A DNA stretch of 64,000 bases from Elusimicrobia bacterium RIFCSPLOWO2_02_FULL_39_32. Lineage in GTDB: Bacteria; Elusimicrobiota; Elusimicrobia; 2-02-FULL-39-32. Positions 1 to 27,000 of the stretch are shown here, piece after piece. How positions within the stretch are numbered: the first letter of the stretch is position 1; each line of letters starts with the position of its first letter. Below the pieces are notes generated by a model. It saw only the letters and a list, made by a program, of their open reading frames with translations. It was not told where the DNA came from and did not search any database. Both the position numbers and the translations under genes were made by a program. Location of the stretch: positions 124,001 through 188,000 of the forward strand of contig MGUU01000016.1 of NCBI GenBank assembly GCA_001800135.1. Reading direction: 5' to 3'.

Positions 1-3000
1 AGAGCCTCTGTCTCACCAAGAGTCATTTGAACATCAAAATCTCCTCTCTCTCTTTCCTCCTCAGCTGCCTCTTTATCCGCTATCGAGGCAGGGCGGATTT
101 CATCTTTTTCCGACCATCCCTCTGTCTTGACACCCATAAGTTGTTGTGTTATAGTTGAATTAATGGAAGATAACAGCTCAGAGACTTTCTTTACATCTAG
201 GAGAAGGGAATTTATCGCTTCCGGTGTGCTTAATCTTGGATTAATACTGCTTACATCAGGACTTGTAAGTGAGGTTTTTACCTCGCTTAATGTTTCCTTG
301 AGAGCAGCTATTATTTTATGGGGAGCAATATTTTTCGTTTCCTCTGCAATTATTTTTCCTTCAGAAGGAGGTAAATAAGATGATAACTCTAACAGTAACA
401 ATGATAATGGTTCTAACCATTCTGGCTCTAATAAAGTGGGAAGAGCATCGGAAGAAAAAAGCTGGACCGCATTAAGTTGTTCGATCACTACATCCGCCTG
501 CCCAATCGCGCGATCCAATTCAATTTCTAAATTTCTAACCTCAATCTCGGATTTTCTTCTCTCACCACCTAATTCCCCTTTTTTCCAACTCCTGATTGCA
601 AATTTAAGTTTATCTCCCAAACTCATCCGCTCTTTAAACTTTTCTTTCACTTGATCTAGGAATTGTTCAGGAGTTAAAGAACGATCTACCAAATGTCTAA
701 AGATAATTCGGAGCCGATCTAAAGCAGTCAAGTGATTCACAAGATACCCAACCTTGGTAAAAAAGACCGAAGTGTAGAGGTACTCCTTGGGAATCTTTTT
801 CCCCGGATTGACGCTTAACCACATCATCGCCTCCAGCAAATTCTTTTGATTCTTAGATGTTTTTTTAACTTGTTCAGCGGAGCCGCAATCAATTAAGATC
901 ACCCGAATCTTATTATCTTCTCTCATAAGATGAAAGTTCCCGCCATGGGGATCTGCCAAATAGTCCCCGTACTCAAACATCTGCCGCATGAGAAAATCAA
1001 AAATCATTTCCTTTACCTGTTTTAGCTCCTGCTCACTTACAATCCCGCTGGATATCAGCTTCTCTTCTTTGTCCAGAGACACGCCTTCTGCAAAATCAGT
1101 TTCCATGCTGATTCCTCGATGAATGCTCCCTTCATAAATGTTGGCTACTCCAAATTCAACGATCGTTTTGCCGTCAGTTAAACGGTAATCCTCTTTTGCA
1201 TTGATTTCCTGAATCTGATCCTTAAACCTTTTGGTAATGCGAACTTCGTTTTCAAAATCAGCGTCATCCGCAATCGCTCCTGAGACCCGGTCCTCTAAGC
1301 CCTCTGGAATCTCAAACTTAATCTTTCTTAAATCACCTAAAACTTTCCGCAAGAACTCAAGGTCGCTCTTCATCTGTTGGTCAACATCCGGTCTTTTAAT
1401 TTTAAGCACATGCTCCTTAGTTTTCCCTTTTCTTTTAACCTTATAAACAATTTTCACTGAAGCGCTGCCAAGCTGTTCCCCAATAGTATCAAAATGCTCT
1501 TTGAACCCGCCAGGATAAACATTTTCTATTGTTTCAAACACCACCATCTTGCTTAAAGGGTCGGCTCGGCTGGACAAATTTTTGAGCGCTTCCCTCAAAC
1601 GGTTGGAAAGAGGAACATCATAGGAATGCGCCAGCATCTGCGCCATTTTAACCCCTACTAAACCTAAAGACTCAAAAAACTTTGCGATCATCTCTTCTTC
1701 ATTCTTCTTTTCACCCTTTAGGACGCTTGCCATGTTTACGGTCATAGCCTGAACCATCTCTAATTTTCTTACAGAATCACTGTTTTTAAGAATAACTTTC
1801 ATAATTTTTTTAAGAGTTTTTTTCGGAATATCTCCCTCAGGCACCATTCTTTCAAATAGATCATCCATAAACCCATTGAAAATATCTTCTGCCTCCAAAA
1901 TTCCCTGCCTGCCAATAAAGAGCTGTCTGATCAGTTCCTTTTTAGTACTTTCTCCTATGCGTTCAAAATCTCCCAGAATTAAACCAGCTTGACTTACCAT
2001 GGGTTCACTAAAAACTTGTTTTAAGCGGTCAAAATCAACCCCTAAAAATAACTCCCACTCCCGCATGAAAAGAGGCTTGTCTTTAATCCCCAATATCCAC
2101 AGCAATAAATCCTTTTTTTGAGCTGGATGAGCCTCTTGAATTAAAAGAACGATGCGGTCCTGGAAAAAAATAGATTTAGCCGCTTGCTCCTCATGAAGCA
2201 CTCCTTCTTTGTACTGATAAAGAAGAGGTTTAATCAGAGCATACTCCTCATAGGTTCGAGCAAACTCTACAAGTTCTAAAAGAAGATCATCCCTGAGGAA
2301 TCCGGGCTCAAAATAATTTTTTACAAGATGGACCTGATTTTTTATAAAATCAAAATGCTCCGCTGGAGTCATGCTGTGAAGACGATCTACTTTAATTGGA
2401 TTTGCATTCCTCTCAAGTTTTAAGCTGATCAAACCAATCTTATCCTCAAAATAACCATTAAAAAATAAATCTCGGACGCTTTTTAAGTTGGCCAGCAGAA
2501 CATTGAGAAGTACATCTCCTTTAGAGAAATCAAGTTCAAAGTTAGCCAACATCTCTAAATAACGATCGCGAGTAGCGGACTCTCTGGGAAACATCCTTAA
2601 AATAGTATCGAGTTTCTGTTCAAAATTAATTTGAGGATCAGAAACAACCTTCTCAATTCTTCTTTCTGCCAAGCCAGGGATCAGAGTATCCAACTGAACA
2701 TGCTTTTCTTGAAAGTCAAAATGAAAAATGTCAGCTAAAGGCTCCTTACGCATTGCTTGCAGATAAAAAAGATAAAAACCTTTTACTAACCTTGTAAACC
2801 ACTGATCATTGAAAAGCGTTTCTAAAAGAAGTTCTCCAATCCTGTTCCTTAAAACCAGCTCTTGGGAGACTGTCCACTGAATGATAGGCGAATTCTCTTG
2901 ATTAAATTTTGGGAAAAGAAGCCCGATAAGACGACTCGCCATTTCATAAAATTTCACCGAAGGTTTGATGACCACTAGATACAGAAAATAAATAAGAATG

Positions 3001-6000
3001 CGCACACAGCATCGAACTAAAATTCCAACATAGCTGTTGAAAAACAGTTCAGTAAACATACGCTCCAATTTAGACATAAATGACAGGTCGCTGATCCAGA
3101 ATAAGTGCGATGGAAAAGACATTTGTTTGATCTTTTCGCCCAAAGGCCGATCATTTCTCCCTTCCTTTTTCAAAATCCAATAGAAAAGAATGCTGGTATT
3201 GATCTGATCCATTCTGCCGTCATAAAGAAGCAGAGGAGCGATCTTTTCCAGCGCATCATAGATTTCTTTATTTTCTTTCCCTTTCCGTTCTCTTTGAGCA
3301 ATGAATCTTCTTAATTCAGAGATGCCGACCCTTCCTCTGATTTTAAAGGCCGGGTCAATCTCCTCTACTTTCTTTGCAAATAGGTAAAGAAGAAGATAGT
3401 TCCTATAAATGGAAGGAGGAATCCAGATTTGAATTTCTTCCAGCTGATCCTCAAAACTTTTTTCAGAGCTCAAGAACTCTTCAAAAATTTTGGATTCCTC
3501 TTCGCCTCCCCCTATCAAATCCCGGCGGTCTAAATATTTTGGAACCCCAAATATCAGTTTTCCAAAAGCTCCTTCAAAAATCCTTTTGAGTTCTGGAAAC
3601 AAACCTGCGGTAGCGGCTCCATTTTTGAAAAGATCTTCAAACATTGACCCGCCATCAATATAGTTTTCTAATGTCTCTATTTCACCTAAAAACATTTGAA
3701 AAATCCCAAGTCTTTTTCCTTTATTGGATACCTGACGAACCAAACTTAATTTTCCTTTATGATTAAGAAAAATCAATAAATTAGAAGTTGCGATATATTC
3801 GCCCCAGGTATGAACCTTGTACAACTGAGCATTGACCATCTGTTCTGAAATATTCAGCTCGCCCAGATAGACCATTCTACCCCTATTGATGAATCCTCTA
3901 CTATACTCATTCAACCACTCTTTGGCTGAAAAAACCAAAGGAACTTTATGCTTCTTTTGTTTTTCAAACATGTAAGGACTATTCAAAAATAATGCTAAGA
4001 TATTAAGCTCTTTTTGCGGAATAATGCGCTCCTCAATAGCCCTGTCAATAAATTTGTGAAAATCTTCTATAGATAAAATTCCGCCTGCGTCAAAAAAGAA
4101 TATCCACTTTAGAATCTCTGGATCAGTCTCCCCAACATCCGCGCTAATCCCAGCCTGTTTTAAACTCTCATGGACAGTTTCTTGCACATATTTAAGCCCT
4201 TCTTGAGTCATTTGCAAGAATAAAAGCTGATGAAGTTTATTTGAAAGTTCATCAGTTCGCAAGGGTTTAGCTCCTTTCCTTGTTTCATCTGCTTCAGCAA
4301 TATATTTTTTTAGACGATTTAATTCCTCTTTAATATCTCTAGCTAATTGCGTTCCTGCAGTTTGAACGTTTAAAAGCGCGTGAATTTTGGCAATCTCTTC
4401 GCTGGTTAAATCCAGAAGAACCTTGATTACCATTAAGCTGTCCTGTAATATGTCCTCTTTAAATAAAATCTCCTTTTCTTTTTTTCGCTCCAAAACACGG
4501 AAGAACTCTTTTTTCACATTTTCTCTTAATTCCCGCGATGAGTAAATTGCGCTTAAAATCTCTGGGTTCGGCGAACTGATCAATTCATCATAGACGAATT
4601 CCCCAATTTCCTTAATGTTATGGAATTCCTTCATCTTTAAGAAATATTTTAAAAGCATGGCTCGATCTTCGTTTCGTCTTCCATCTTTTTCCATTTTTGC
4701 CAATGCCATTCTTACGATCAAACGCGCTAAACGATTGACTCGAGCCATGGGCTGCATGAGCAGCTCTCTTTTTTTATAAGAGACCATATCTAAAATGGCT
4801 AATAAACTTTGGATGGATGGATTGCGGGACAACTCAATTATTCTTCTTAAAACTTGATACAAATAAAGTTCAAATAAAGATTGTTTTGCATAAATCAGAT
4901 TTCTTTGCAATTCTACACCGCCATGATCTCTGGAATTTAAGTCATGATCAAATTCCCATTCTCCTGTGGGATGAAGCGATTGAAAATGAATCATTAATTC
5001 ATCCAAACTTTTATCTTTAACCAGCTGATAAAGATGCCTTTTAATGCCTCCTAGCGCGTCTCCAGCCAACCTTGCCCTCTGTATAACAAACCCCATAGTT
5101 CCGCCATATCGAGATTCTAATGGATTCAGAGAGAGAGAGAGTAGATGAGGAGATGTGATGGAACTCCCTTTTCTTTCAATGGCTTCTTCGCGCGCCTGAA
5201 TTAAACGCAGGATGTCATTTTTCTTTTGCATTGCTTCTCTAACCAAGCCGCTCGCTGAAAAAAGTTCATTCAATTTATTGTAGTCCAGAGGGATAGGAGT
5301 TCCGTCCCGATATCCGTGGACAATCGTATGCCCTGAAAACGTGGAGCTGGTCGGGAAAGAAACAGCACGAGGCATCTCTCCTGTGGCCAAATAGCTGAAT
5401 AAACAATAACTGGATAACTCCTTCAAATCCCATGGATACCCTCCTAGAAAAGGTTCTTTCCAAAGACGAGAATTATAGAAATGCCAACTGTTGCTTTTTT
5501 GCAAGGTTTTCCTAATCCCTTTTGCCGCCTTATTCATTTCCTGCGAGAACTGCATTGAAATGATCTGTTGGGCTGCCAGATCCAAAACATGGTTTAGAGC
5601 CAGGGAAATTAAAAATTCCAATTCCTCAAAGGTTTGGGCGCTCTGAACCGCAATTTCCAATTTTTCAAATGAATTTAGCCCGGCCAATTTTTCTTGAAGC
5701 TGCCTAAACCGAGACTTCCCTAATCTAATTTGCTTTATAGCCTGGAATGAAAAGGAGGAGACATTCTGTGTTTCCCGCCAATTGGATCGTCTTTGAATTC
5801 TTCTTAAAGTGTCAATGCGCTCTTGGGAAGGAGGATGACTGTCGAACATAGCCTGAAAAAGAGAAAAGGAAGGAGAGCTGCGATTTAATAATTCAAAGAA
5901 TTTAGTAATTTCACTGATGCTGTATCCAGCTCCATTGATGATCTCTACAGCCCTTACATCCGCGTCTTGCTCCTTTGCATAAAGATGGACTGCGTCATGC

Positions 6001-9000
6001 GCTTTAAACTTCAAGTAGTCTTCCAGAGAACCAAAGCGACGGCCAATTTCTTGCACCTTGCCTGCATCCACAGCCTCTCGGTATTGAATTAAATGCGTCA
6101 CCTCGTGCGCTAAAATAAATCCGATCAGATCTTTGGTTAAAACCCCGGCTTTGTGCAATTCTCTGAACAGCCCAACATTAATCACTATAAAATTAAAATA
6201 AATGGCAGCTGCTCCATTTGCTGAAGAGTCATCCGCTAAAAAGAGTTGAGCATTCTCCAAACCTTTTGCCTGATCCTGTTTGCCTTGAGCTATCATCATA
6301 TTTTTTGCGCTTTCCAACACCTTTTGATAAACTTCTTGCAATTCAGACTGCAGGTCAGGAAACTCATCCTTTTCAACAAAACCAAATTTTATCCTCATCT
6401 GCTCAATCAGCGCTTTCTTCATCAAAGGATCATAAACATATTTATCTTTTTGACCTAATTCATCTAAACTATCCTCCCCCAATGTCATTGCAAATGAGGG
6501 AACATAAGAAGGCAGCTGTTTCTCTACAAAATTCCATACCGCATGCGCAGTGACGCTCCACAAAATCCCGACACCCACCCCAATAAGCGTGTGAAGACCC
6601 GCCGCAAGTCCAGCGCTGCCAGGCATGACAAGGGAGAGATAGGCAATAGTTCCAAAAATTGCGGCGAGATTAAAAAAGAATGTGAGAGCGATGCGGACTG
6701 GAAGCTGGAGAGGGGAGCGCGTATTGTCGTGGGCTATTGCAAACTGAACCTGATGGTAGCCGATCCATCCCGCCATCACCACCGCCAAGGGAACAAGCTG
6801 ACTCAAATCTAAACCTGCAAAGTTCTGAAACATATAAAACACCATCGCAGAGATCACCGCCGGCAACCGTCCCTGCCAGCGCGATTGCCAATCGCTTCTA
6901 CCCGGAGTTTTAATCCCCAACTCCTCGATCACAGAAATTCCCCACAACTGATTCTTTGCCAAAAATCTTTTCACTTGCGCCAACAGTCCCGTCGCATTCC
7001 GCCACTCTTTCAACAGCGCTTCTGTCCCACCAAGCGTCATCTGAACAGACCCGTTATCTTCCTGATCAACATCCACAACCAAAGTCGTGCCATCCTCCCC
7101 TTTTTCTGATGGTCCCTTTATACCTTCATCCGCTATTGAGGCAGGTCCGGTTTCATCTTTTTCCGATGATCCCTCTGCCTTGACACCCATAGGTTGTTGT
7201 GTTATAGTTGAATCAATGGAAGATAACAGCTCGGAAACTTTCTTTACATCTAGGAGAAGAGAATTTATCGCTTCCGGTGTGCTTAATCTTGGATTAGTCC
7301 TCATTACCTCTGGACTTGTGAGCGAAGTTTTTATATCGTTCAACATGTATTTTAAAGTAGGGATTGTATTGATAGGAGTTATTCTTTTTATGTCTTCCGT
7401 AGCTGTTTTCCCTGCTAAAGGAGAAGAAAGGTAATATGATAACCGCAACAATATCTCTCTTAATGGTTCTAACAATTCTGGCCCTAATAAAGTGGGAGGA
7501 GTATCGGAAGAAAAAAGCTGGACCACATTAAGTTGTTCGATCAACGCATCTATCAGCCCAATCACCTCATCAAATTCATCTTCCTTCCAAATAAGATGCG
7601 CTAGCTCTAGTAAAACCCTACTGGCATACTTATACGATTCGCTCCCGTGATTCTGAGAAAGTTCATTGGAAATTATTAAAAAGATTTCACTCATCTCTGA
7701 AAGCTCATTCGTTATCCGTTGCAAGGCAGGACTGTTGCGATCCGACCATTGAGTTATTTCTCTCAAATAATTCCTTAATTCATCTACTGCTTTCTGTGAG
7801 GCTGCCTTTGTCAGCAATAGGTCCACCCTCATTGCCTCAATTTTATTTCTCAGCTCTCCAATATTTAGTCTTTTTCCATTTCCAAGCTCTCTTCTTTTCT
7901 CTAGTTCTGCTTTTAGATGTTGGTAAACTGCTAACCTCTCGGGAGATAAATCTTCAGCTATTGATCGGCGGTTAAAATATAATTTATTATATTTTTCCAA
8001 CCCCTCCAAATACTCAATTAAGTCTAATACAACATTGTTTATATTATCACGGGACAACAATAGCGCCTCAATTTGCTCTTTAGATTGAATATCCCCTATC
8101 CTTCGGTATCTATCATAATTTTCTTTAAACCAATACCACAGACTAGATTTCAAAGAAAGTCCATAAATTTTGTATTCATCCAAAATATCTAAGAACGATT
8201 TCTTCCCAATTGTGTTGTAATGAATTAATTTCATAAAGGCCTCGTACTCGTGGGAATCAGAAGGATACATAGAAAGAACATGGTTGTCAGAATTTAGCGC
8301 TTCAACAATCATTCTCCTTGTTTCTAGGGTGGCTTCAAATCCATCTCTTGCAATAAGGCCAATCCCGTGCAGCGCCATAGTAACACTCATTCCCTCAACC
8401 CTAGTAACTAATCTTTTATTGATAAGATCATCCATGTAAATAGGAATCTTGCTCGCATCGTATATGATTCCAAAATAACTTTTCAGCCCTTCTAAATTAT
8501 CAAACTCAACCTTTAATTTTCCATCAGCCTCAACTGTAATCTTTAGAAACAACTGCCTTATGGAAAAATTAGAACTCCTGCTATCCCCTGAAACCAAGAG
8601 AATATCTGTATCTTTTATATCGGCCTTAAAATTTGATAAGACAGATTTTATTGTACCCGCATCAATATCCTGATATGGATAAGATCGAACTACAAGATCA
8701 ATATCGGAAGTAAAATCTTTTAATGTTTTGTCTCTTAATAACCCTGCACTTCCCAAAAGAGAATGAATAGCTGTGCGTCCAAACAACGTTACTGCGGTTC
8801 CCTCTGGAAATTTTTTAAGAGCAGAACTTAGTTCTGAATCGAGCCACACTTCATGTCTTTTGTGCGAATATGGGATATTAACTTGATATACCTCTACATG
8901 GGACGGGTGGTCACTCTCAAAAACGATATTAGCAAGTGGCAAGCCTGTGATTAAAGCAATGAGGTTGTAAAGTGAATGGAATAGGAAGTGAAGACCAAAT

Positions 9001-12000
9001 CCAGATATAACAGCTTCTTTCAAATTAGTAATGTCTCCAAATAAAAAATCAGTCACATTGCCCAACAAAGGAACAGAGGAAATCGGAACTCCCATTAAAA
9101 CAAAGATAGCAGGAACTACAAGAGCCCCTGCTAACACTAAACCTACACCAAACAAAACTGTTTTCTCTGCAGACGACCTTCCCTTATGCGCTCCACTGAA
9201 TACATACGCGCTCTTTAACGCCCACTGCACTATGAATGGAATAATCACAGGTAAGAACCATGCAGTTAAAGGCAATGCCATGAATAGAGATATTCCACCA
9301 ATTACCAAACCAGTTACAACACCAATCGCTGCCATCTTCTTAGTCCCTAACTCATATATCTTATTGGCCTTAACCATATCCGTTGAAACTCCTGCCATCC
9401 TCTTAGCTCCCAGCTGATATTCCTTTCCTGCGCCAGCCATTTGAACCACAATTCCTCTTTCCTCTATTGGTTCAACCTCACCTGCAATCCCGCTTTTCAC
9501 TAACCTTTCATGCGCCCATTCTCTCACCCCAGGAATAAAATAGAGCACCTCCCACCACACCCCAATGAGGGTGTAAATCCAGTGAGCAAGCGCATAAATG
9601 GAATGGTAAGCAAACCTGTATATCTTCACACTCTCCCACTCATCCCCAAATAGCTTCTTAAAGATATTCTTAAGCTGAATTTCTAACCACTGCTTTACCT
9701 TCTCATCAGCAATAGAACCAGGACCAATCTCTTTTCTCTTCGATGATTTTTCTTCATCCACTATTGAGGCAGTGCCTGTTTCATCTTTTGCCGATGAACC
9801 AGCTCTGAAGAATTGAGAATCCTTCTGAACTGCCGATGATCCCTCTGTCTTGACATCTGTGGCAGCTTGTGTTATAAACATGTTAGAAACAAACTCCATG
9901 AATATATTCAAAGACTCAAGAAAGCGATTGATTGGATCTTCACTTGTTAATGTCGGGGTGTTGCTATCAACCGCCGGGGTTATCAGCGAATCTTTTATGA
10001 AATTTAGTTTTTCAACTAGAGTTGCAATTTTTTCTCTGGGGATAATGTTGTTTGCATTAGGAGTTGTTATCTTTCCAAACAAAGATGATAAGGAGGATAA
10101 TTGAGATGCCATTAACAATAACATTTGCTGTATTGGCTTTGCTGCTTGTTGCCTATATAAAGTGGGAGGAACATCGGAAGAAGAAATCTGCTGGACCGCA
10201 TTAAGTTGTTCGATCAACGCATCCGCCAACCCAATCGCATTATCAATTTCAGTCACTAAACCTTCTAGTACTTTAGTAGCTTCCTCACGAGGAGCAGCCT
10301 TCCCTAGTCCAAAACGTTGAGATAGTTCAGTAATAATCAAGGTTAAAGTTGTTTTTGAGAAAAGATTCCTGAATGAATAAAACTGCCTTTGAAGAATGAC
10401 CTCTTGAAAAATATCACTTTTTTCAGATGCGCTTATCCCATCAGTAATGTAAGCAATGGTCTCAAAAACTTTAAAAAGAACCTCAAATTCTCCAATAAAA
10501 GCAATTCCACGATCATCCAATAATTTCTTAAGTGCCCTTAACTTATTTTCAACATCTAAATCCTGCTGCAAAATGATTTGTTCCAATTCTGATTCTAAGC
10601 CCTGAACTCCTTTTTCCCCACCCATCATCTTTTGAACTAGATTCAGAGATTGTTTAACATCTAAACGATCCAGCGCGGCTAACAATAAAATAAATGTTTC
10701 TTGATTTTTTCTTGAAAATTTAGCGTTATTGCCAAAATCAAGCAGAGTCACCTTCCCTCCTTTCTTAGCCTTTTTAGACAAGGAAACAAAAATATTGCCA
10801 GAATGGAGATCCGCATGATAAATGCCTTTAATCAGAATCTGGCGCAAGATCCCGCGATAAATCAAATGTTGAACAGCTGAAAACTCTCCATCTGCTTTTA
10901 ACCGCGCAATGATCTGATCTTTAAGAGGAATCCCATCAATAAACTCATCCGCAAAAAATTGCTCTCCTTGCAGTTGAGGATCAATCCGAGTCACTCTTAA
11001 CTCCCACCCATTTCTTTTTTCTCCATTAGAGAATCTTCCCAAAACTTTTTGCGCAAAGACTTCCTGCTTAATATTCAATTCCCGATGGACAGCAAGGTCA
11101 ATTTCATCCATCAAAGAATCAGAAATCTGATCTAAGCCTGATATTTTTCCGCGCAGAGCTTGAATCACTTTCTTTGCAATCTCTAAATTCTCCTTAACCT
11201 CGTATCGAGCCAAAGGACGAACATACTTTACAGCCTTTAAAGAGCCGTCTCTTTTTTTAACTAAATAACCTTGTTTAATTGAAGCGCTGCCTAAAAGTTT
11301 TCCTATGGTTTTTATTCTTCGTTTTAATGAACCAAAGGAATGATCAAATAAAAGAGCGTTGAGCAAATACCTTTTATCTAAAGGATTCACCTGATCAGAT
11401 AATTTTTCCAATGTTTCCCTTAAATGCTCATCTGTAATTAATTTTTGTTTAGCTAATATCTGCCCTAGTTTAACACCCACTACCCCAAAACTTGTAAGCA
11501 GCTGGCTAATCAGTAAATTTTTTAAAACCACCGCTTGACCCCCTGCAACTGGGTTCTTAAGGAAATGCGCAAATAATCCATTTATTAAATCTAACTGTTT
11601 TAGTTCTGGGCTGGCATTAAAAGTCTCTTGAAAAATAAGGTAAAGAACATTTTTCTCATTCGCTCTTTCACCTGTTCCATGCTCAAAAATATTCTCTACC
11701 AGTTGCAAACGATTTGTATCATCGCTTAATAATCCTTTAGGTCCAACAAAAAGAGTGGATAAGAAAAGATAGCGTTCTACATCAGAAACAGTCTCTAAGA
11801 TTAAAGCCAAATCTGAAAAATCAGCTTTTAAAGAATATTCCAATTTTTTAAGCTCATCTGGTTTTTCTGTTCCAATTCCAATCAACCATTCAAAAAGTTC
11901 CCTTTTATCCTTTGGCTCCCATGCTTCCATAGCATCAGCTAAATGCTCTAATATTCTATGAGCAGCTCTCTTTTTTAAATCTCTTGCTAACTGATCCGTA

Positions 12001-15000
12001 ACCTTTAGTTCTCTCTCAGACTTTAGCTCCTCCAATTCTATTTCCACATCCTGCAGGAACTGGTTTAACAATTCTTTTTTAATTTCAGAGTCAACTGGAA
12101 AATAAAAATCCATTATTTCTTTAACTGATTCATAACTATCCAGCTTCAATTGCCCTAGTACTTTTTTCTGAAGCAAGATTCTTTTTGCCAGCATATCTTT
12201 AATCATGCTCTCTTCTAAATAGGAAAAAATAACTTCAAAATTAAGAGTTTCATCTCTAAAAGGGTCTCCTATTAAATCAATTAAAATTTTATTTCTATGC
12301 AGAGATTTATGAGGATAACATTTAAGCGCTAACTCTATTTTTTGAGACAATGGCCAAGAATAACCCGCTAAACTAAGGTGATGCTCTTCTAACCAGAGTT
12401 TGAGCAGTTGATCTCCCCATTCAATGGTAAAGTCAGATTTAGGATCTTCTTTAAGCCTGGCCCAAACCGGTAGGTAATCCGCTTTTTCAGAAAGATATTT
12501 TGCATCATCAAAAGATCTTCTGCTAGAGTATTGAAGATCAGGCAACCCAAGTCCTGTGGAAAAAGGAACAAAGAGAGAGGTTATTCTAAAAAGAATTTCA
12601 AAATCTAGATCCTTTAATCCTTTGAGCTCTGCTGTTTTAAGAGCTCTTTCCAGATAAATCCAATTATATCTGCTGGGACGCAATCGCGGCAATAATTTGT
12701 TCAAAGCAGGAACCAACTTTCTCTCATCATTGGAAAAAAACCAATTCCAAGCTAAAAGCGATACAAGATCATTAAACTCTTTTGCATGAACACGATTGTT
12801 TAAGAATTGCTGTTCATGATTCAACATTAAATCAAAAATCTCTTTTTTCTCCTCTTCATTAACTAAGGATGAGAGGAGTTCTGTGTCTGGAAGATAGCCA
12901 TGAATAATAAAAATTCTTAATTGCTCTTTTAAAGGAATCCCTTCCTGATTCATAAGTTCTTTAAGAAGCTTTAACAAGGTCATGTCTGTATAAAGCTCTA
13001 GGTCGTTCGGTCTTATGATATGTGCGATTTCATGGTTATACTTTTTATAATAAAAAGCGATCAATTTCTTTTGTGCAGCTGAGTCCTTAATTTTTCCAAT
13101 AAGGAATGCATAAGTCTTTGAAAAAATATAGGATTTATTTGACCTGCCGCCGACGTCATATTTCGGGTCAATCCACTCATTTTCTAAACCATACTTTTCA
13201 AGAATAGTATCTAAAAGTCCAATGGCTTTTAGCGGCTCCATGCCAAATTCTTCTATCAGCTTCTTCATTAAAAGCTCTAAACGACTGACAATCTGCTCTC
13301 TAAACTTTTCACTCCTCATCATAAAATCAAGGAGTAAAAATAACTCTTCCTCACTTTTAAGCGCCTTATCCAGCAGTTGTGATATCCCATGATGTTTTAT
13401 CGCTTCAAACTCATCATCTAGATATGGCTCTAACTGTTTTAAAGCAAAGAACAATTCATTAAAATTTGAAATTTTTGAGAATATGAGCTCAAGGTTCCTT
13501 TGATCATATTCAAGAGTTTCTAAATTTCTGATAAATTGAGGCATTACGTGTCTATGCATGGCTAAACTCTTATAGACGTTCACTAACTCTTCCAGACTAA
13601 ACTCATCCTTTTTCTTTTCAATCTCATTTAAAATATGAACTACCATCTTATCCATATAGTCTTCAAATGATGAACCCTCTCCGCTATGCATCATGCTCCG
13701 CTCATCTTGTTGCAGAATTTCAGCCCAAGGCTGATCTACGCCAACCAAGAGATAATCATTTTCAAATTGACGAAAATGGGATAAAATTATTTCCAGAGCT
13801 TTTACGGGATTTTCCCATTGAAGAGAGCCTAAATATCCTAAGATGTTATTGTCCTCCAAATGAAGAGCTCTCTCTAAGTAACGCAACCCGCTTAAATAAA
13901 GATAGGTGATCATCTGTTTTTTATCTTTTTGGCTTAGTTGAGATAATTCAGGAGCAAGTTCTTCTGCTATTTTTTCTAATTTTCCTTTAAATTCTGAAAA
14001 TCTGGAGTGATAGAGATCCATCTCCCTTTGCCAAAAAAGAATAGCAGGTTTATAATAAACCTTTGTTTCTAAAAGTTTTGGACTAAAACTAGAATAGGGC
14101 ACTAAATTTTTTGGACCCATCCCTTGTCTTTGTTTAATCAAATAAAGATTACGTGAGATTTGATCAGCCAATAACTTCTCTGGAAGGGTTTTTAGTAATT
14201 CCGGAGAAAGAGTTATATTCTTTTCAAAAGCAATTTCTCTTGCCCATCTTTCCATATCCTTAATCTGTTCATCTGTAAAATATTCTTTTGGATTAATCTT
14301 TGAATCTAAAATAAATTTTTCTTCTAATTCCCAAGTATATCCAAGCACCATTAATGACTCCAGATGTCCCTTTTCTAAAATGATTTTTATTCCTGTTCCT
14401 GTAGGATTTTTAAACTCCTCTAACACAGTCTGAAAGCGCAATAAAATATTGAACAGATTCATCACTTTTAAAAGATCATGAAATGAGGTGGCATTTTCCG
14501 CGCTTTGTTGGAGGTTCTCAAAGGTTAATGTTCTATAGAGCTCTTGGTCAAAATAAAACCGCTCAGACCTTTTAACATTCAAAAGAGATTCTGGAATGGC
14601 TTCTGGTTCTCCATGCAGATAGCGCCAATAGTTGTGGCGAATATCATTGAATATTTTGACCACCCTGCGGTGGGTGTGAGGATGAGTTGTAGTGATCTCA
14701 ACTGATTTTTCCTCTTTCTTAAGCGCCTGCATAAAACGAAGCGCAGCCATAGGTGTATAGACTCTTTTGCCAAGCCCTTTATCAATAGTGGAAAGCCCAA
14801 CCTCATCTGCCCTATATTCTCCTGAAAGAGAAGAATGTTTATAATTGGGATCAACGCTCTCATCTTTGGCAATTATGCTATGTCCTGTTTCATGGCCTAA
14901 AATAAATTTAATCGTATCTTTATCCAAAATCTCATTCCTTTTTAAAAACTGTAAAAGTCCCCAATTAAATTCAATCACTTTTTCATTTGGATAAAATCCA

Positions 15001-18000
15001 GCATTAATATCATCGCTGTCTGAAACCACGAACAGATATTCTTGCTCAGGCAAACCAAGATCGCGCAAAGCAGCTTTGGCTAATCTCTCTGCTATGCGCA
15101 CAATTTCAAAAGATGGATCAATAATGCCTGAAATCCTTTTAATTTGGTCTAGCCTTGCTCTTGCTTGCGGTGAAAACCGTTCTGATTCTCTGCCATTCAT
15201 TCGCAAAATAAAGGAGGGCAAAAGTTTCATTTGATAAGCATCAATAATTTCCCAACTAAAATGAATTAGAACAGAACCAGTAAGCGTAAGAATAGGATGG
15301 CCGGGGAATAGGATAAAAGGAAGGTTAAAAAGGATTGAAGCAAATGCGCGGGAACGGAAAAAACCGCCTGAGAACTCTTTTGCAAGCTCTTTAGGCCATC
15401 CCTGCCATTTAGCTGAATCTCTATATTTTAACCAGCGTACAATGGTATGAGAAAACAAAAAGCCCGGTAAGCTCCAAACTATGCCAATAGTTAAACCTAT
15501 CAATGAATCCCAGCCAAGAAAAGAAAATGCCATTGGCAAACCCACAAACCCAATCCAGCGATAAATCGCCTCTTCTCCAATAGAGACTCCTACATAATAA
15601 ATAACTCTTTGCTGCCAATTTTTAAATTTTTCCGGCTGAAGGATTGGAGCTAAAATATCAGCGGATTTGCTCTCTTTAGATTTTTTTACTCTTTTACCTA
15701 AATCCCTAAACAAAAATCCAATCTTTTCTCTAGCGCTCATCAGCGACTTAAATTTCTCTTTTACCTGTTCCATAAATGCTTCTGGGGTTAAAGAGCGATC
15801 CACAAAATATTTAAAAATAATATTTAATTTTTGTTCCTCGCTTAAATGTTGAAAAAGATATCCAGCTTTTGTAAAGAAAACTGAAGTGTAGAGATATTCC
15901 TTAGGGATTGATTGCCCAGGATTTACACTCAGCCAAATCATTGCTTCTAGCAAATCTCTTTGATTTTTCGGAGTTCTGGCAACTTCCTCTGCGGAACCAG
16001 AATCTATTAAGATCACCTTAATCTTATCCCCTTCCCTCAAGATATGGAAATTCCCTCCGTGCGGGTCTGCTAAATAAAACCCATATTCAAACATCTGCTT
16101 CATCAGGAAATCAAAAATAGCCTGTTTAACCTCTTCCAACTCTTTTTTATTCAAAATGCCTGCTGCTATTAATTTTTCTTCTTTGTCCAGAGAGATCCCT
16201 CCCGCCAAATCAGTTTCCATAGTCACATCTTGATGGATCGTGCCTTCATGAATGCGGGCGATACCCATCTCTACAACTGTTTTTCCATCTGAAAGTTTGT
16301 AAGGGCTCTTTTCGTTTGTCTCCATGATCTGCTGTTCAAATCTTTTTGTGATGCGAAGCTCATTCTGAAAATCCACATCTTCAGCAATAGCGCCAGAAAT
16401 TCTATCTCCTAAACCCTCTGGGATTTTAAATCCCTTTCTTGTTAATTCTTCTAAAACACTTTTAAGAAATTTAAGATCCTCCCCCATCATCTGCGCAACC
16501 TCAGGCCGTTTAATTTTTATCACATGCTCACTTAAAGCTCCCTTTCTTTTTACTGTATAAACAATCTTTACAGAAGCGCTTCCCAAAGGAGCCCCAACAG
16601 TTTCAAAATTTTCCTCAAAGCCTCCCGGATAAACATTTTCTATGGTTTCAAACACCACCATCTTGCTTAAAGGATCAGCCCGGCTAGAAAGATTGTTTAA
16701 AGATTCTCTTAACTCCTGAGGAAGAGAAATATCATAAGAATGCGCCAGCACCTGAGCCATTTTTACCCCAACAAGACCCAAAGACTCAAAAAATTTAGCG
16801 ATCACCTCTGATTCATTCGCATTTTCTCCCTCTAAAACAGAGCCCAAATTAATAGAAAGCGCTTGCACAATTTTTAGTTTGCGTTCAACATTGCTCTGAT
16901 TTAGAACAGTTTGAAGGATCGTCTTCAGTTTCCTCTTTGGAAGCTCACCCTCTTTAGGCATCACTTTTTCAAAGACCGCTTCCATAAAATTTTCATATTC
17001 GCCTTCAGTCTCTAATATCCCATTTTCTCCAACAAATATCCTACGAATAAATTCCTCTTTTGCGCTCTTGCCTAAACGATTGAGATGAATTCCATCGTTC
17101 TTCATTCTAAATCGAGATTCACTTGCTCCCACAAATGTCTCTTTTAAACGGTCTAACTGAACCCCAAAAAACTCTTCTAGTTCAATGATTAAAAGAGGTT
17201 TTTTCTTAACTCCCAATATCCACAAAAGAATCTCTTTTTTATCCTTTGCGCTCGCGTCCTGAATAAAACTCTTTAATTGGTCTTCATAAAAAACAGTTTC
17301 AGTGGTTTTCTTATCTTTAATTACATCCCCTTTATATTGATAAAGCAGACCTTTTATCAAGCTATATTCATGGTTGGTTCTTGCAACTTCCAAAATGGAA
17401 AATAAAATATCGTCCCTAAGATATCCAGACTCAAAATATTTTTGAGTAACACGAACATTTCTTTCAATGCAGTTATAATGCTCATCCCTGCTCATTTCTT
17501 TGCTTGGAACATAGAGCTCAGGCTTCAATGACCTTTCTAACTCCCAAGAAAGAACACTATATTTATCTTTAAAGTACGGATTGAAGAATTCAGCTAAAAG
17601 AGAGCTTAAATTTTTAAGCAGCTCCTCTCTTTTTTTTGGATCAGCGCTTAAACGAACAATTTCATTTTCAGACAAGATCTCTAAATATTTATCCCGAACA
17701 GGAGAGGCTCTTTGAAACATCTTTTTAATATACTCTCTTTTTTCATTGAATGGTTTTAAAGGGTCTAGCATTACATTTTCTATGTGGCTTCCAAACAACT
17801 CTGGAATGGAACTGTCCAGATGAGTCTCTTTCTCCTGAAAATCAAAGTGAAGGAGTTCTACTTTGGTTCTTGAGCGGAACTTTTGGTTATAAAAAAGGAT
17901 GAGCCGTCTGACTAAAATCATGCTCCAACGATCTTCATAAAGCCTTCTTAAAAGCTCCTCTCTAAAATAGTTTTCTACCTGCCTGTCTGCAAAATCCACA

Positions 18001-21000
18001 TCCAGTTCTGTTATCTCACTGTTATATCGAGCCCCTAAAAACTCTTTTACAGCTTGGATATATCTCTCTTTATCAGAGTCTGCCCCCTCTATAAGCTCTA
18101 AATGAAAATTTTTAAGATACCGGTATTTCTGATAAAGATCTAAGAAATCCCAGATCACTCCTACCTCTCCAATGGTCTTAAAGGGAGCTGACAGGAATTG
18201 TCCTGTGGCAGCTAAAAATCTACGAATGTGGTTAAATAAATCTGTTATGAATTGACCTATTGCTCCTACTAACTCCTTTAAAAAAAGAACTATTTTTTCC
18301 CAAAAGCCTTTAACTGCTGCCAGAATTTTTTCTAGGAGAGAAAGTTTAATAAAAATTTCCCCTAATGCATTAATTTTGTATATATCGTTATCTGCTATTT
18401 TAATCTTTTCTTCTAATCCTTCAACTTCAGAGATCGAATCATAATATTTATTTTCTTTATAATCTCTTCCTCCCAAACCAGACTTTTTCTCTCCACTTTT
18501 CTTTAATCCCCAATAAGACAAAAGAGTTGAATTGATCACTTCCATCCTTTTATCATAAGAAAGAAGAGGAGCAATCTCTTCTAAAGCATCCAATATCTCT
18601 CTATTCTCTTGCATATTTCCCAGAGTTTTTTTTAATTTCTTAAGATCAATCCTCCCTTCTAATTTAAAAGATGGGTATACTTTATGCACCATCTTTGCAA
18701 GCAAATAGAGAAGCATGTAATCTCTTAAAATAGATTTGGGCAGAAAACTTTTTATCTCTTGCAAAAGTTCAGAAAAACTTTTTTCTGAATTTAAAAGATA
18801 GTGGAATAGAGTAGAGCCCTCTTCTTCATCAGCGAGGAAATCTCTTCTATCCAGATATTTTGGAACACCAAAAATCAGTCTTTTGAAAATACGCTCAAAA
18901 GCTCTTGTTATATTGATTCGCATTCGCTTTAAAAATTCTGATTCACCTATTTTTTCAAAAAAACCTATCATTTTTTGTTTATCTGGTCCATCCTTATCCT
19001 CAAGTGGTAAATCTTCAAACTCTCCATACACCAACTCTCCTTGAAACATGGAATATTCTCCAGGAGTTTCATCCACTTTTGCCACGCGTTCAACCTCTTT
19101 CTCTTGTCCCGTCATCTTTAAATAAACCAGGTAGTTAAAATAAACTATGAACTCTGACCAGGTCTGCGCTTGGTAAAATGCTTTGTTCAAGATCACCTCT
19201 TCCGGAGATGGGGTTCCATAGTAATAGGACATATCAATTCCAGCCCGACCTTTGTCTATTCTCTCCATTGAAAAAAGTGTTGGGACTCCCCGCTCCTCCT
19301 GCTTTTTTCTCAAAGTATCACTATTTAAAAATAAAGCAAGAATTTCTAAATCTTCCTTTTTGATTAAAGGGTCTTGAATCATCTCCAACACCTTTTCATT
19401 GAAATCACTTGCGCTTAAAACCCCGCCGCTATCAAAAAAATATATTAACTGAAAAATCCGTTCTGACTCTGGCAGTTGATCCATTGAAAAGCCTGCTTCT
19501 TTTAGGATCCGGACACACTCCTGTTTAAGAAATTCTTTTTCTTCTGGACCATAAAGAGCCCTTACTGTAAACCACAAAAGTTCAGAAATATCTCCCATTT
19601 TTAAAGGTTTATAACCAGACTCATTCCTTCTTACCTTATCGTGTGAGTCAATGAAAGCTTTTAGTATTTTTAATTTCTGGATATCATTTAAACCAAATGA
19701 ACGATTAATAAACGCTCTATAGATAGAGCCAAGATCACTCTCAATACCCAACACCATAGCGCTGAGGGTTGCTCCACGACCTATTAAAAATAGTTCAATG
19801 ATCTCTTCAATTTCACCATTTCTTAAATTGTCATAAAAAAGGACTTTATTAGGATTTTGAGATTGGATTGCAGAGATATAGCTCCTTAAAACCTGTTCGC
19901 GTAGATGCGCTGAGCTATAGATCGCTTCCCTTATAACTTTTGAGTTTTGATCTTTTAAAAGCTCCTGATAAACAAAATCTCCTACAGCTTTTATGGAATG
20001 CAGGGAGTCGTTCTTCAAAAAATAGTCTAATAATATTTTATGGTCACTTTTAAGTTTACGGCCTTGGTTCCCAACCTCTTGAATAATTGAATTGACCAAC
20101 TTCTCACTATTCCAATAACCTTTTCCCAGAAACTCCTTTTCCTTATGAAGAATCAAATCTAAAATTCCAAGGAGTTCCCCTAAAGACATGGTTGAAAAAT
20201 GAGAAGAAATTTTATCAATAACCGCGCCCATATATTTCGAAAAAAATTCTCTCTTAAGGGAATAAAATTCTCCTAAAAAATTTCCAAAACTTTTATTTTC
20301 ATCCTCAAGATCAAAACCCATTTCTTGAGGATAAACAGCTGATTTAAGAACACGGATCAAATCTTCCAACTTTAAATCCTTAACTATTCCTTGCATGCGT
20401 TCTCGAATTTCAATTGCGTCTCTAAAATCACCATAACCGCCAAGCACATCTTTGTCAGGGCGATCCTTAAGCGACATCATCATTAAAAATGCCAAAGGAT
20501 CCTCTCTATAACTTACAAGAGATTCAGCGCGTTTTCTAATTGCATCTATGGCTCTATCCTTTTCTTTGGAAACAGATTGAATTCTTTCATTCTCAAGCAG
20601 CAAAGGAAAATAAATTTTCTCAAGCAATTTTGAAACAAGCAAGTAGAGTCTTTGCTCTTCATTTGAAGCATGTTCCCAATCCAAACTGCCTCTCTTAGGC
20701 AATTCTCCTGTGGCAAAAACACTTAAAATGCAATAAGCCACAATCTCTTCTACACTACTATCCCTACGAAGATTAAAGTAAGGCGCTCCCCACAAATGTT
20801 CGCTATTAAGAATGGTATAAGAGCGAAATGTATAATTTTTTTCGTTGAATTCATGCAGTTCCCTTATCGCATCCTCTATTTCCTGGATAAGATCACTGGA
20901 AACAATATTCCTGATCTCATCCTTAGCAACGCCATTGGAAATTTTTTCCAAAGTACTGGTCATTCCCCAACTAATTAAAAATTCTAATTCTTCCATATTC

Positions 21001-24000
21001 TTTGCATTTTTTGCAGTCTCTTCTACTTCTTCCAAACTCTTAATTGCCAATAATCTCTCTTGGGAAACACGATTCTTGCTTCTTTCTCCATTTAATTCAT
21101 CTATGGTTTTCTGACTAAATTTTTCTGTTTCTTCAGCCTTTACTTTACGCCAGTTGCTTCTTTTCCTAATCTTTTTCAAATACTCAATCCGGGTTTCAGG
21201 GGGAGCATGCTTATCAATCATTGTTTGAAATTTATTCCTAAATTTCTTCTCCTTTGCCATTTTCTCAAAAAATAGAGTGATCTCACTTACACTGTAACCT
21301 GCATTGTTTACCAGCTCAACTGCCCGCACATCCGCATCTTGCTCCCTTCCATACTTATCTATATGTTGTTCTAATTTTCCCGCAATCAAATCATCTATAG
21401 ATTTAAACCCAGCATTCAGTTGAATTCGCCCTGCATCAAAATCCTCTCTAAACTGAATGAGGTGAACGACTTCATGAGCTAATATAAATGCGATCAAATC
21501 TTTTGTAAGTGTTCCTTCCTTCAAAAGCTCCTTAAAGAGTCCCATGTTAATCACAACAAAATTAAGATATAGATAGGCTCCTGCATTAGCAGAATTTAGA
21601 TCAGCAAGGAAGATGTCCGCATCTAGAAGTCCTTCTGCTCTATCTCTTTCCCCGGCTGAAATCAGATAGTCCCTGGCTGCGCCAAGAACATCTTTAAAAA
21701 TTTTCTCTGTCTCCTCATACAAAGCCCGAAATTCATCATCTTCTCTGCTAATCAGGCTCTTTTCAGATTTTAGTTTTCTAATCACCTCTCTTTTTATTAC
21801 TGGATCATAAATATACTTATCTCCCTTTTGAGCTCCTCCCTGCGCTCCTTCTTTACCTCCAGCTTCCCCCAGATAATTAACTATTTCTAAAATTCCGGTT
21901 TCTGAATCAGGTTTGTTTTCTTTGGCTTTCTCACTAAGTTTAGAGCTCAATTCCTGATTTTGCTCTTCTCCAAACGCTCTATCTTGTAAACCAAACAGAA
22001 GCTCTTTGCCTTTTAATCCTGTTTTTAAATTAAGCAAGAGGAGATGCCTTTCCCTTAAAGGTATCTCATACGAATATTCTTCCTTTGCATACTCAATAAA
22101 TTCAACTAAAGAGTCATCAGTCAGCGCCCTACCCAGAGCTTCCCATTGAGCGTATATTTCCCTCAAGGTTCTACCTGATCCCCTTAAAAAAGTGTGGGGA
22201 AAAAGTTCTTTTTCGCTCGTATCCCAATCCCGATAATAAAAATAATAGGAGATAATCTCTTTGTATTGAGAAGCAAGCGTTAGCTCCTCATCTTGAGGCT
22301 GAAGCGCCAGCTCCTCATCCTTACCCTTAGTAAGATATTTTTGAGCATGAAATGGATTTTTCCTCAAATGTGACTCTAATTCATGGATAAATCCATCCAA
22401 TGCTACAATTCCAGGAATATTCCCTTTCTCTTTCCAGTCGTCAAGGAACATTGAAATTTCCCAAGGCATGAGCTTCTTATAAATATTTTCCATCCCATTC
22501 TTAGCAAAATAACTTTCCGCAGCCTCATGGAACAATCCAATGGGATCATCCAATAGAAAATCAGCAATCGCAATGGTCTCTCCCCCATCCACTTTTACTT
22601 TGCTGATTCCAAAGATCGAATCGCTATTTTCTTCCAAAACCAAAAAAGTTTGAGGTAGTTTTAGCAAAGCATAATCAATGATCTCTTTTGCTAAGCTATC
22701 CTCTGTTTTCTTTTTTAAACTATTTAGAGATCCTTTTACTCCATAGGATTGCCACATTTGAGCTTTGATCTCTATTTCTTTCTCCTCACCGGTTTCTAGA
22801 TTCTTAACTTTTGCAGAAACTTTCCCCTGATTCTGCCCTGTCTCGGTGTAAGATGGAAGAGAAAGAAGCTGATATTTCCCCATCAACCCTGCTTCCATAA
22901 AGGGCAGGTGTTTTGAAAAAAATAAAGAATAGAATTTATCCCATATTGCAGCTAGATTGAAAAAATGAGAACCAATCTTCACTCTTACATTGCTTATTAA
23001 GGCTGGTATAAACTGTCCTGTAGCATTGGTTATAAAATGAATGATGGTAGAACCAAAAACAATTGTAAGAATAAGATAGAACGGAGAAAGTGGAAGGAAG
23101 CCAAGAGCGATGTTCACAGATGCGATGAATCCAGCAAAGGCAAGGTTGACAGGAGGCGCTCTTTCTGCCCCATATATTTTTAAATCAGCTAAATGCCCAG
23201 CAAAAAATAAACTCCAGCTGAACAAATTCGCCAATCGAATGGCCATGGTTAAATCACCGCCAGTTGCCCAATAAACAGAAATGCCAATCAGAACAGTTCC
23301 AACTGTTAGAACCAGAAAATTTTCTAAAATCGGCGCGATCCATTGGTCATAGATCGGCTCTAAATTTGGAAAGAGTTTTACAATCGGCCGCTTTAACCAC
23401 AACATGATTCCGCCCACATTTTTATCCCTCCCTGATTTTAAATCCATGATTCTGATAAAATTCTCCAGACGCTTTTCAGCTGGCAATTCGGCGGGAATAC
23501 TGTCCCACACTGCGGATAAATTAGGGTTATATCCATCTCTTAAATAATCATTGACTCGAACTAGTTTTACAATAACGCTTTTTGGTATTTCTTCATGATC
23601 CCGCACAAGTTCGTTAAAAAGCTTTTCCATACGTGTGGACATTTCGCCGTATTGTTCTTTTATAATTTCATTCGCCCTTTCCTTCCAAGGAAAAGAATCA
23701 TCCTTTGTCAGCTTTATTAATGCAAAAAGCGGCAGAGAGTAATTATTCCTCCTGCTGCTTCTGAACACGGCTTGTCTCACTCTAGGGTTTTTATGAAACG
23801 ACATTTCAATTAATTCTTCGTCTGTTGTATGCCAATTTTTCGTTACCTCTATTGCCAATAATGGATCTAACCTCAAAAATTCCCTCAACTTCCTAGATTT
23901 TGTGGCCCACGAAAAACTTCTTTTCAATCCTTGAGGCGCGTGCTGCATAAAATCTTGAATGCTCAATGATCCATTTTCAAACAGAATCTCCAAATCCTTA

Positions 24001-27000
24001 TCATTTAGTCTAGGAAGATTAGAAGCAAATACAAAGTCCGAGTCTGATTTAGCTAAGATTGTATTGGAAATTTGATACAGCGCCGCAGCAATCATCCAAA
24101 ATTTCTCTGGATCACTCTTTACCAATGAAACGAGTTCATCCATTGATCTCATCGTTCTCCAATTAGAATCAGGCACAATCCTGTTCAAATAACCCATCAG
24201 CCCGTTATTACGGCCAAGGGTAGTCTCCAAAGATGGATGATTCACAAGTTTTAATGTCGTATCTTCAAATTTAATGAGTCCACGCGCAGTTAATTCGTTC
24301 GCTATAAAAACGCCAGACTCAGAAAAAATAGATTTATTCTCCGATTTACTGGATACCCCAAATGAATCAGTAGAAGAATCAGAATCAAAATGAATTATTT
24401 TCATTGCGAACTTTTCTAGACCCAATAATCTTAAAAATTTATAAATCATAACTAATCGCATCGTATCCGTAGTTAAAGGTGTGGATAAATCATCAATCTC
24501 GCTTATCTTATATGCGTTTGAACCAGATAATGAAAGATGTTCTATAAAGTACTCATCAAATCCCTCAGGTGAATATTTATTTTGATCGGAAACAATTTCA
24601 TTGAACGATTTCATTTCAGCATAAATACTAAAAGGCAAAAATCCCCATTCATGGTACAAGTCATCTTCAGTTGCAAACCATTTAATTCCAACCCTTTGTC
24701 CTTTAGGAATCCAGCTGTTTCCGTTCTCATCAACCGGTCTCCAGTGATATACGGGATTGCCGGCATCGTCTACCGTATAACGCATTGCGGGGTCCAGAGA
24801 CCATGCCATAGACAATAGATTCCCGTCATGATTTCTAAAATAGTCGGATCCATCCTCCTCCTCTCTTGCATCCTCCCCGCCAAGGATCAAACCCGGCTCT
24901 CGAGCCATCGCTTTATAATAATGGCCGATAGACGCAATCGCTTTTAATAGATTAACCGTTTTCTTTTCATGATCTACGCTTAAACTCATCGCCTTTGTAA
25001 GAAGTTCTTTGTAGGAAGGGCGATAACCGTTGGGATTCCTAGAATTTGATTGTCCTGTTACCCAATCGAGAAGACTCCCAGCCACATTGATCTCTAAGAA
25101 CGTTACATTGGGATGATACAGGGCATGGCCTATCAATGCAGCCAGTCCGTAAACATTCATATTTTTTGGTAAAGGCAATGTGACGGTATATCCTTGATTC
25201 GTAAATTCTTGAATGGCTTCTTCAAAAACACGCTCAATATTTTTTGCCATACGTTTTCTTGTAAGCCCCATAATAGGTTTTGGAGCTGCGGAAGTCTCAG
25301 ACACAACACCCATAGCCAAGGGTTGAGTTCTATTGAGCATCTGCGCCATAGAAGCATAGAGATTTTCCATCCCATCCAAAATTTCTTGTGATTGTTTAAA
25401 GGCCAAAGCTTTCAAATTCCCAATATCATTTACACTTTCCAATACTGCCAGGTCTTGACGCAAATTTTTATAAAAGAGTGCGAACACCTGCTGTCTTGTG
25501 CCAGGTTTAAGTGAAGCGAAATACCTGCTAAACTCCAATTGGTCTTTATTCGGCCATTGGGCAACTTCGGAGAGATACCGGTAAAGCAATTCGGGCTCTG
25601 TCCGCAAACCATTAAAGAGATCATCCAATTGCCTCTGATCCCATAGATTTTGAATTCGGTTGATTGAAATAAGCGCAGAAACAGGGAGATCATTAGAATA
25701 TTCTTTGAATATTTTCTGCCACAACAGCCGGTCAGCTTTCTTTTGTTCGATTGAATTATCAATATCGCTGACACCGGCTTTTGTCAGAATTTTTTGAAGA
25801 AGGGAAGCAGAATCGTTTACTGATATAGGAGAATATTTTTTAAAAAAGTGCGGGGATTTAAGAACATGCTGAATGGATATTCCATCCCCAATCAATCTGG
25901 CTCCATCGTATGCTAAAGACATCGCTCCAGATAAAGTACCGGTAGTCAGCATGAGTGCCATCAAACCCCATCTAAAAATAGTTCTAGAAATTGTCAACGC
26001 TCTAAACCTTAAACGTCCTGCAAACGTGGAAGGAGGTTCAGAGGTTTTCTTCTGCTGTTTGATTTGTGCGCCTACTGCGCGCATGTTGATTGACCTGTGC
26101 CAAACCACTAAAGCAGCGGCGCTAAAAACTGCCGTAACCCAGAGACCCGCAAGGGGAAGAGCAGCAACTAGAGTTGTGGCTAAAGTAAGAATCAAAACGC
26201 TTTTACTCCAAAAAGCGTTTCGATTAAAGATGAAATGAGGCAGCCAAAAAGTTAGACCAAAAATTAAAGGCGCTAACACCGCAAAACTTGCGGGCAGAAA
26301 CATGTACGCAACGGCGCCGACTCCAAAAGCGATCAGCTGCTCAAACCACCAGGCAACATATTTTGTGTACCATACAGGTTTAAACCAGTTTCCAGCTCCT
26401 CTACCAATAAAAACCTTCTCGAAATATACCACAAACCTCAAGACTCCTTCTCTAAAAGAGCTCCACTGGATTTTCTGAGAATCTTTCCCAATCTTTTTTT
26501 TCCAATTTTTCCAAGAGGTGACATTCACGGTATGGTTCTTCCCTTTCACTTCAAAGACAACTTCATATCCGCTTCCAACTTTTCTGCTTCTTTTATAAAT
26601 AAACCATTCAGGATCTGTCTTTAATTTATCTTTTAACATTGTCATTGCTATAAAGTAGGGGACCATCACCAAATCTTGAGTAAACTCATCTTCATTTTGG
26701 AATTCACGGTCATAGGGAATATTGCTGTCAGCCATCCTATGGGCAAACCAAAGCTGCTGATTGATCGCATCCTGAGAATAGTGGCCTACTCCAGTTTTAT
26801 TTACAAATTCTTCCCCTTCTGCTGTACCAACCAAAGCTAGAGATTCACCTTCCCTTCTTGTCATGCTCCCTTGCTCAACCTCATCAGAATTTTCAATATG
26901 GACTTTCTCATGTGAAATAGTCAAGATGCGTTGTGCAAGTCCTCCTCTCCTTCCCAAAATATATCCTGGTCGTCCATCTTTAAAAGTTGCCGCCATAGCT

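Follow-up and report, generated by a model that had tools for sequence, protein, structure and literature searches.

Whether antisense open reading frames (ORFs) in bacteria are functional has long been disputed, since the candidates mostly occur once and show little conservation. The described bacterial antisense overlapping protein genes include cosA (PMC2396522), pop, which lies opposite ompA (PMC7103648), and laoB (PMC5810103), and the subject has been reviewed (PMC7457138). According to their abstracts, each is a single gene at a single locus, and laoB is described as having arisen by overprinting. A different kind of nested sequence is represented by the Rickettsia palindromic elements (RPEs) (Ogata et al. 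2000, reviewed in PMC10969869), which are about 150 bp long and contribute an ORF that is fused to the host gene in the same reading frame. Genes for huge proteins have been documented in Elusimicrobiota and Omnitrophota (PMC11573180). In the literature searched, no report was found of conserved antisense operons inside huge-protein genes.

The window analyzed here is a stretch of 64,000 nucleotides from an Elusimicrobia genome. The original prediction held that a TTGACA-17-TATAGT promoter nested in antisense within a giant gene leads, after seven bases, to the ATG of a 71-residue two-helix protein, followed by a 31-residue membrane peptide that is preceded by AAGGAGG and begins a single base past the stop. 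All of these elements were found in place, as was the giant frame on the opposite strand:

127..155, plus strand: promoter of cassette A, consisting of TTGACA (127-132), a 17-nt spacer ending in TGTGT, and TATAGT (150-155)
163..378, plus strand: ORF1 of cassette A, 71 aa, a helical hairpin with two predicted hydrophobic membrane helices
365..371, plus strand: Shine-Dalgarno sequence AAGGAGG, inside the 3' end of ORF1
380..475, plus strand: ORF2 of cassette A, 31 aa, one predicted hydrophobic/membrane helix and a basic tail KWEEHRKKKAGPH
3..30041, minus strand: host giant ORF, 10,013 aa in the window, open across cassettes A, B, and C

The ORF1 start codon at 163 lies 7 nt downstream of the -10 box, and ORF1 may be leaderless or nearly so. 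The ORF2 ATG stands one base past the ORF1 stop, behind the AAGGAGG. The entire cassette (127-475, plus strand) lies antisense within one uninterrupted frame of 13,472 aa (G000:C16:113632-154047, where G000 is the window's genome), which bears out the proposed nesting. This frame contains ABC1/UbiB-like kinase and M48 peptidase domains and is therefore regarded as a real gene, and related frames were found in 8/9 genomes of the family. As far as sequence can show, the earlier reading of the genes was right. It had missed a multi-copy cassette family and the apparent selection for an open giant frame.

The window's genome has about 20 related giant ORFs of 2,000 to 13,500 aa that share the ABC1/UbiB kinase and M48 peptidase modules, and the two compared in detail were mosaics, rearranged between sister species. 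Summed over the listed frames, such ORFs account for ∼14% of this genome. They were also present in genomes without the cassette, so that giant genes do not depend on it.

Two further cassettes were located in the same giant gene of the window:

7180..7208, plus strand: promoter of cassette B, TTGACA-17-TATAGT
7216..7434, plus strand: ORF1 of cassette B, 72 aa, 69% identical to that of A
7436..7531, plus strand: ORF2 of cassette B, 31 aa, 81% identical to that of A
9850..9878, plus strand: promoter of cassette C, TTGACA-17-TATAAA
9880..10104, plus strand: ORF1 of cassette C, 74 aa from the ATG at 9880 or 68 aa from the ATG at 9898
10106..10204, plus strand: ORF2 of cassette C, 32 aa, behind AAGGAGG

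Cassettes A (127-475), B (7180-7531), and C (9850-10204) are mutually homologous, and the second ATG of C (9898) agrees with its counterpart, F2, in the sister species (G001). Chance expectation was gauged with 300 synonymous-codon shuffles of the giant gene as far as it lies in the window. Promoter-like sites by themselves were not unusual on the antisense strand of the giant gene, where 7 of such quality were present compared with 5.7 ± 2.4 in the shuffles. A promoter followed by an ORF of at least 60 codons and a coupled ORF of at least 25, in contrast, was present three times in the window, whereas all 300 shuffles together yielded it just twice. The full arrangement is thus unusual, and the promoter alone is not.

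Copies were gathered by an ORF1 search followed by an ORF2 search, and 15 were recovered, spread over four genomes that belong to a single family of Elusimicrobiota:

G000, five copies: A, B, and C in giant gene 1; D and a truncated E in giant gene 2
G001 (sister species), six copies: F1, F2, G, H, M, and D'
G004, three copies: J, K, and L
G007, one copy: I
G001:C18:618560-618970 and 626848-627238: cassettes G and D', with two tandem ORF2 genes each

All 15 copies are antisense within large open frames, three of them in giant gene 1 of the window, although the host-frame lengths of some are lower bounds because the contigs are short. The same small proteins had been suggested as worth seeking outside giant genes; no copy outside large open frames was found in the four genomes. 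Presence of the cassette was patchy (4/9 family genomes). Neither the family's remaining genomes nor the other members of the phylum (341 genomes) yielded a convincing copy, and the phages, plasmids, and viral contigs searched contained no cassette relatives. The relatives recovered by the genome scan were Elusimicrobia MAGs, and an Omnitrophota origin, which the giant genes had first suggested, was rejected. As the working scan reaches close relatives only, distant homologues outside Elusimicrobiota would have been missed. The ORF1 of D' was too diverged to be detected by the family profile, and more cassettes may therefore be hidden. Some copies look decayed, since H has no recognizable promoter, E lacks both the promoter and the N terminus of ORF1, and M carries an internal deletion in ORF1. 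In copy E (G000:C5, ∼25.9k), a perfect 14-bp hairpin with a T-rich tail, resembling a terminator, directly follows ORF2; an obvious hairpin of this kind was not noticed downstream of the other copies.

The putative expression signals were conserved across the family. A promoter with a 17-nt spacing scoring at least 8/12 was present in 13 of the 14 upstream regions scored. Compared with control ATGs on the same strand, 5% of which reached 9/12, the promoters of the copies scored higher (Mann-Whitney P = 1.4e-8), a value that overstates independence because the copies are related. The -10 box is usually preceded by TSTGT and often followed by the ATG after seven bases, while the spacer sequence itself is not conserved among copies. 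The junction of ORF1 stop, 1 nt, and ATG was found in 11 of the 12 copies with both ORFs, and a purine-rich Shine-Dalgarno sequence inside the end of ORF1 was found in all copies that have ORF2. Both the promoter spacing and the junction were kept where the surrounding giant peptide is unrelated. The original prediction would have been refuted by homologues that keep the giant peptide and lose the promoter, start, or Shine-Dalgarno sequence. The opposite was seen: most copies keep the promoter, ORF1, the Shine-Dalgarno sequence, and ORF2, the giant residues there are not conserved, and diverged copies lose the giant peptide. That the promoter and two-gene set is real is supported by this pattern, in the absence of expression data.

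A pattern typical of the lineage (G000-G008), TTGAnn-N12-TSTGT-TAWA, was also observed before many ordinary genes, with starts 6 to 24 nt from the -10 box. Very short leaders thus look normal in this lineage, which suggests that leaderless or very short-leader transcripts may be common there. When the promoter pattern was used to seek extra cassettes, the examined matches other than the known cassettes preceded ordinary genes or nothing recognizable.

The register of the ORFs allowed the strand under selection to be distinguished. In ORF2, the antisense wobble base corresponds to codon position 2 of the giant frame, and the differences between copies were concentrated at this base. N/S-type ratios were 0.12 to 0.78 for ORF2 and 1.03 to 11 for the giant frame, and the ORF2 substitution test gave 43/85 against 35.5% expected (P = 3e-3). 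The ORF1 test had to be conditioned because ORF1 and the giant frame share their wobble position; it was based on four non-overlapping pairs (A-B, C-F2, E-H, and I-J), with an assumed transition weight of 2 and rounded counts. Changes nonsynonymous in the giant frame were silent in ORF1 in 38/150 cases against 10% expected (P = 6e-8), whereas changes altering ORF1 were silent in the giant frame at chance level (13/125 against 10%, P = 0.48). The excess of silent ORF1 changes was absent from the distant pair A-C (7.5/59 against 10%), which may or may not be expected at saturation. In cassettes D and D', ORF2 is 92 to 100% identical, compared with 67 to 86% for the giant-gene DNA directly beside it, and copies I and J resemble A only within the cassette, the neighboring giant protein being unrelated. 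The detectably selected residues are therefore those of the antisense proteins: purifying selection was observed on both of the predicted products, and none was detectable on the residues of the giant. The cassette thereby meets two expectations for an antisense overlap, namely a complete embedded antisense ORF and antisense purifying selection beyond what the host frame forces.

Selection of another kind appeared to act on the opposite strand. The giant frame NEVERTHELESS was kept open in each of the 13 copies tested, and the register was the same in every one. When synonymous codons of ORF1 and ORF2 were resampled, the chance of an open giant frame per copy was 0.0003 to 0.16 with ordinary-gene codon usage and 0.002 to 0.36 with the usage of the ORFs themselves. 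The product over 11 copies was 6e-23 or 1e-16, respectively, values that are only indications and not exact, because copies related by descent are not strictly independent. Consistent with this, Tyr, His, and Gln, the residues that create giant-frame stops in the register of ORF1, were scarce in ORF1 (8/865) compared with ORF2 (36/383; P = 1e-12). ORF2 lies in a different register without such a restriction, and its tail motif itself has His or Tyr; one shared form of the ORF2 tail is KWEEHRKKK. Hence, selection appears to keep the giant frame open along the cassette. The host as a whole is not open without exception, given that giant 1 of G001 (G001:C21:8400-9700) has frameshifts at the edges of the tandem F1/F2 pair that divide it into frames of 5,125 and at least 3,014 aa, with the antisense ORFs intact. 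This may be a real split, a programmed frameshift, or an assembly error. A sense-linker artefact was rejected on the substitution patterns and the open-frame resampling.

Comparison of sister genomes gave one clear presence/absence case. At the M site, the flanks align at 87 to 90% on either side of a gap of exactly 228 bp (76 codons) in the window's species, whose antisense strand still encodes a remnant ending in HKKSAGPH and a stop, the tail of M ORF2. The exact 76-codon gap and this scar indicate that a copy was lost by in-frame deletion with the host frame preserved. The G site differs between the two species and is not a clean empty site. At none of the sites compared between species, which include M and G, was an insertion event seen. 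The cassette has no inverted ends and does not qualify as a palindromic or inverted-repeat element. Clean transposon-like insertion was considered and is not shown, as the best case (M) is a loss and inverted ends are lacking. Several cassettes sit where the colinearity of the window's species and its sister breaks, so that recombination among giant genes may move them, or the cassettes may be recombination points. Together with the patchy presence, the loss at one site indicates that the cassette is dispensable at individual loci.

The AlphaFold model of ORF1 was a helical hairpin (pLDDT 77). For the products, no credible match was obtained in Pfam, NCBIfam, or PADLOC, nor one to a toxin-antitoxin or holin family; PHROG gave only weak matches without annotation, and the structure search gave no PDB match below E = 1. 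The coupled translation suggests a stoichiometric membrane pair, and we infer that the two products work jointly as a small complex in the membrane; their function, expression, and membrane insertion are likewise inferences.

The selection on the antisense proteins, together with a giant frame open in all 13 copies tested, leads us to interpret the cassette as dual-coding, with a bicistronic operon on the plus strand and a fixed-register segment of the giant protein on the minus strand. In the absence of transcript or protein data, we consider this very probable. Were the region instead a linker that the giant protein conserves, its codons would account for antisense ORFs, promoter, and Shine-Dalgarno sequence alike as mere shadows. 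Antisense ORFs can indeed arise by chance, ORF1 and the giant frame have their wobble position in common, and giant-protein sequence too is shared among A, B, and C, but an explanation of this kind is hardly credible in view of changes that are synonymous for ORF1 or ORF2 and not for the giant, the excess identity of the D/D' ORF2 (92 to 100%) over the adjoining giant-gene DNA (67 to 86%), and the survival of promoter spacing and stop+1+ATG junction amid unrelated giant peptide. The conserved residues also tell against a regulator whose promoter tunes the giant gene by antisense transcription, with the peptides secondary. A well-conserved promoter directed against the giant gene would suit such a role, which we nevertheless think unlikely, since residues of both ORFs are selected and the Shine-Dalgarno sequence and coupling are conserved, and a pure RNA regulator needs neither.

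It could also be that a small intergenic operon was trapped by gene fusion, with the giants reading its back strand and dual coding a recent accident. The position of cassettes at the edges of colinearity breaks and the split of G001 giant 1 at the F1/F2 pair would fit this history. It is judged improbable, however, as all copies in four genomes lie inside large open frames with none found outside, the open frame requires codon choices that are rare by chance even in highly diverged copies, and M was lost by an exact 76-codon in-frame deletion. Lastly, the cassette may be a selfish or addiction-type element, with toxin- or holin-like membrane peptides, hiding in giant genes; this proposal concerns function, not anatomy. 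The products are small, hydrophobic, and helical, and the element is multi-copy, patchy (4/9 family genomes), and lost at the M site. Yet the Pfam, NCBIfam, and PADLOC searches gave no credible match and PHROG only weak, unannotated ones, phage or plasmid relatives and inverted ends were not found, and no antitoxin candidate was identified, leaving the idea doubtful but possible.

Under the dual-coding interpretation, a lineage-typical sigma-70 promoter would start plus-strand transcription at the ORF1 ATG or right beside it, yielding a self-contained bicistronic operon for the two-helix membrane protein ORF1 and then ORF2. The latter, a one-helix, basic-tailed membrane microprotein, would be translated from the Shine-Dalgarno sequence in the end of ORF1, coupled across the stop+1-nt+ATG junction. 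The minus strand of the same DNA would add a stretch under little constraint to the giant protein, always read in the same register. We infer that duplication or recombination carried copies from one giant gene to another, and that they persist where the host frame stays open. We see even chances that, beyond this, a promoter-bearing membrane-protein operon has had its reverse strand evolve as a stop-free in-frame insert, with one strand selected for its residues and the other for openness. If true, a stop-free reverse strand lets the operon multiply inside giant genes without destroying them.

The larger finding is a conserved, multi-copy, putatively dual-coding cassette family whose expression is inferred. 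With 15 copies, an ORF2 wobble at giant codon position 2, and diverged hosts, the family acts as an internal replicate experiment and makes antisense coding testable by sequence alone. It also suggests that conserved nested operons go unannotated in lineages with giant genes. The hosts are giant ORFs in a phylum noted for huge proteins, in line with the described huge-protein genes (PMC11573180). The cassette shares with the RPEs (PMC10969869) that it is multi-copy and lies inside protein genes with the host frame left open; unlike them, it has no inverted ends, and its conserved proteins and promoter are opposite the host strand. Like cosA, pop, and laoB, it places protein-coding sequence opposite an annotated gene and brings its own expression signals. 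For those genes there is evidence of expression, whereas the cassette has none yet. The cassette differs from them, as described in their abstracts, in being a two-gene operon with promoter, Shine-Dalgarno sequence, and coupling, in occurring as 15 copies across genera, and in that selection is detected on the antisense proteins rather than on host residues.
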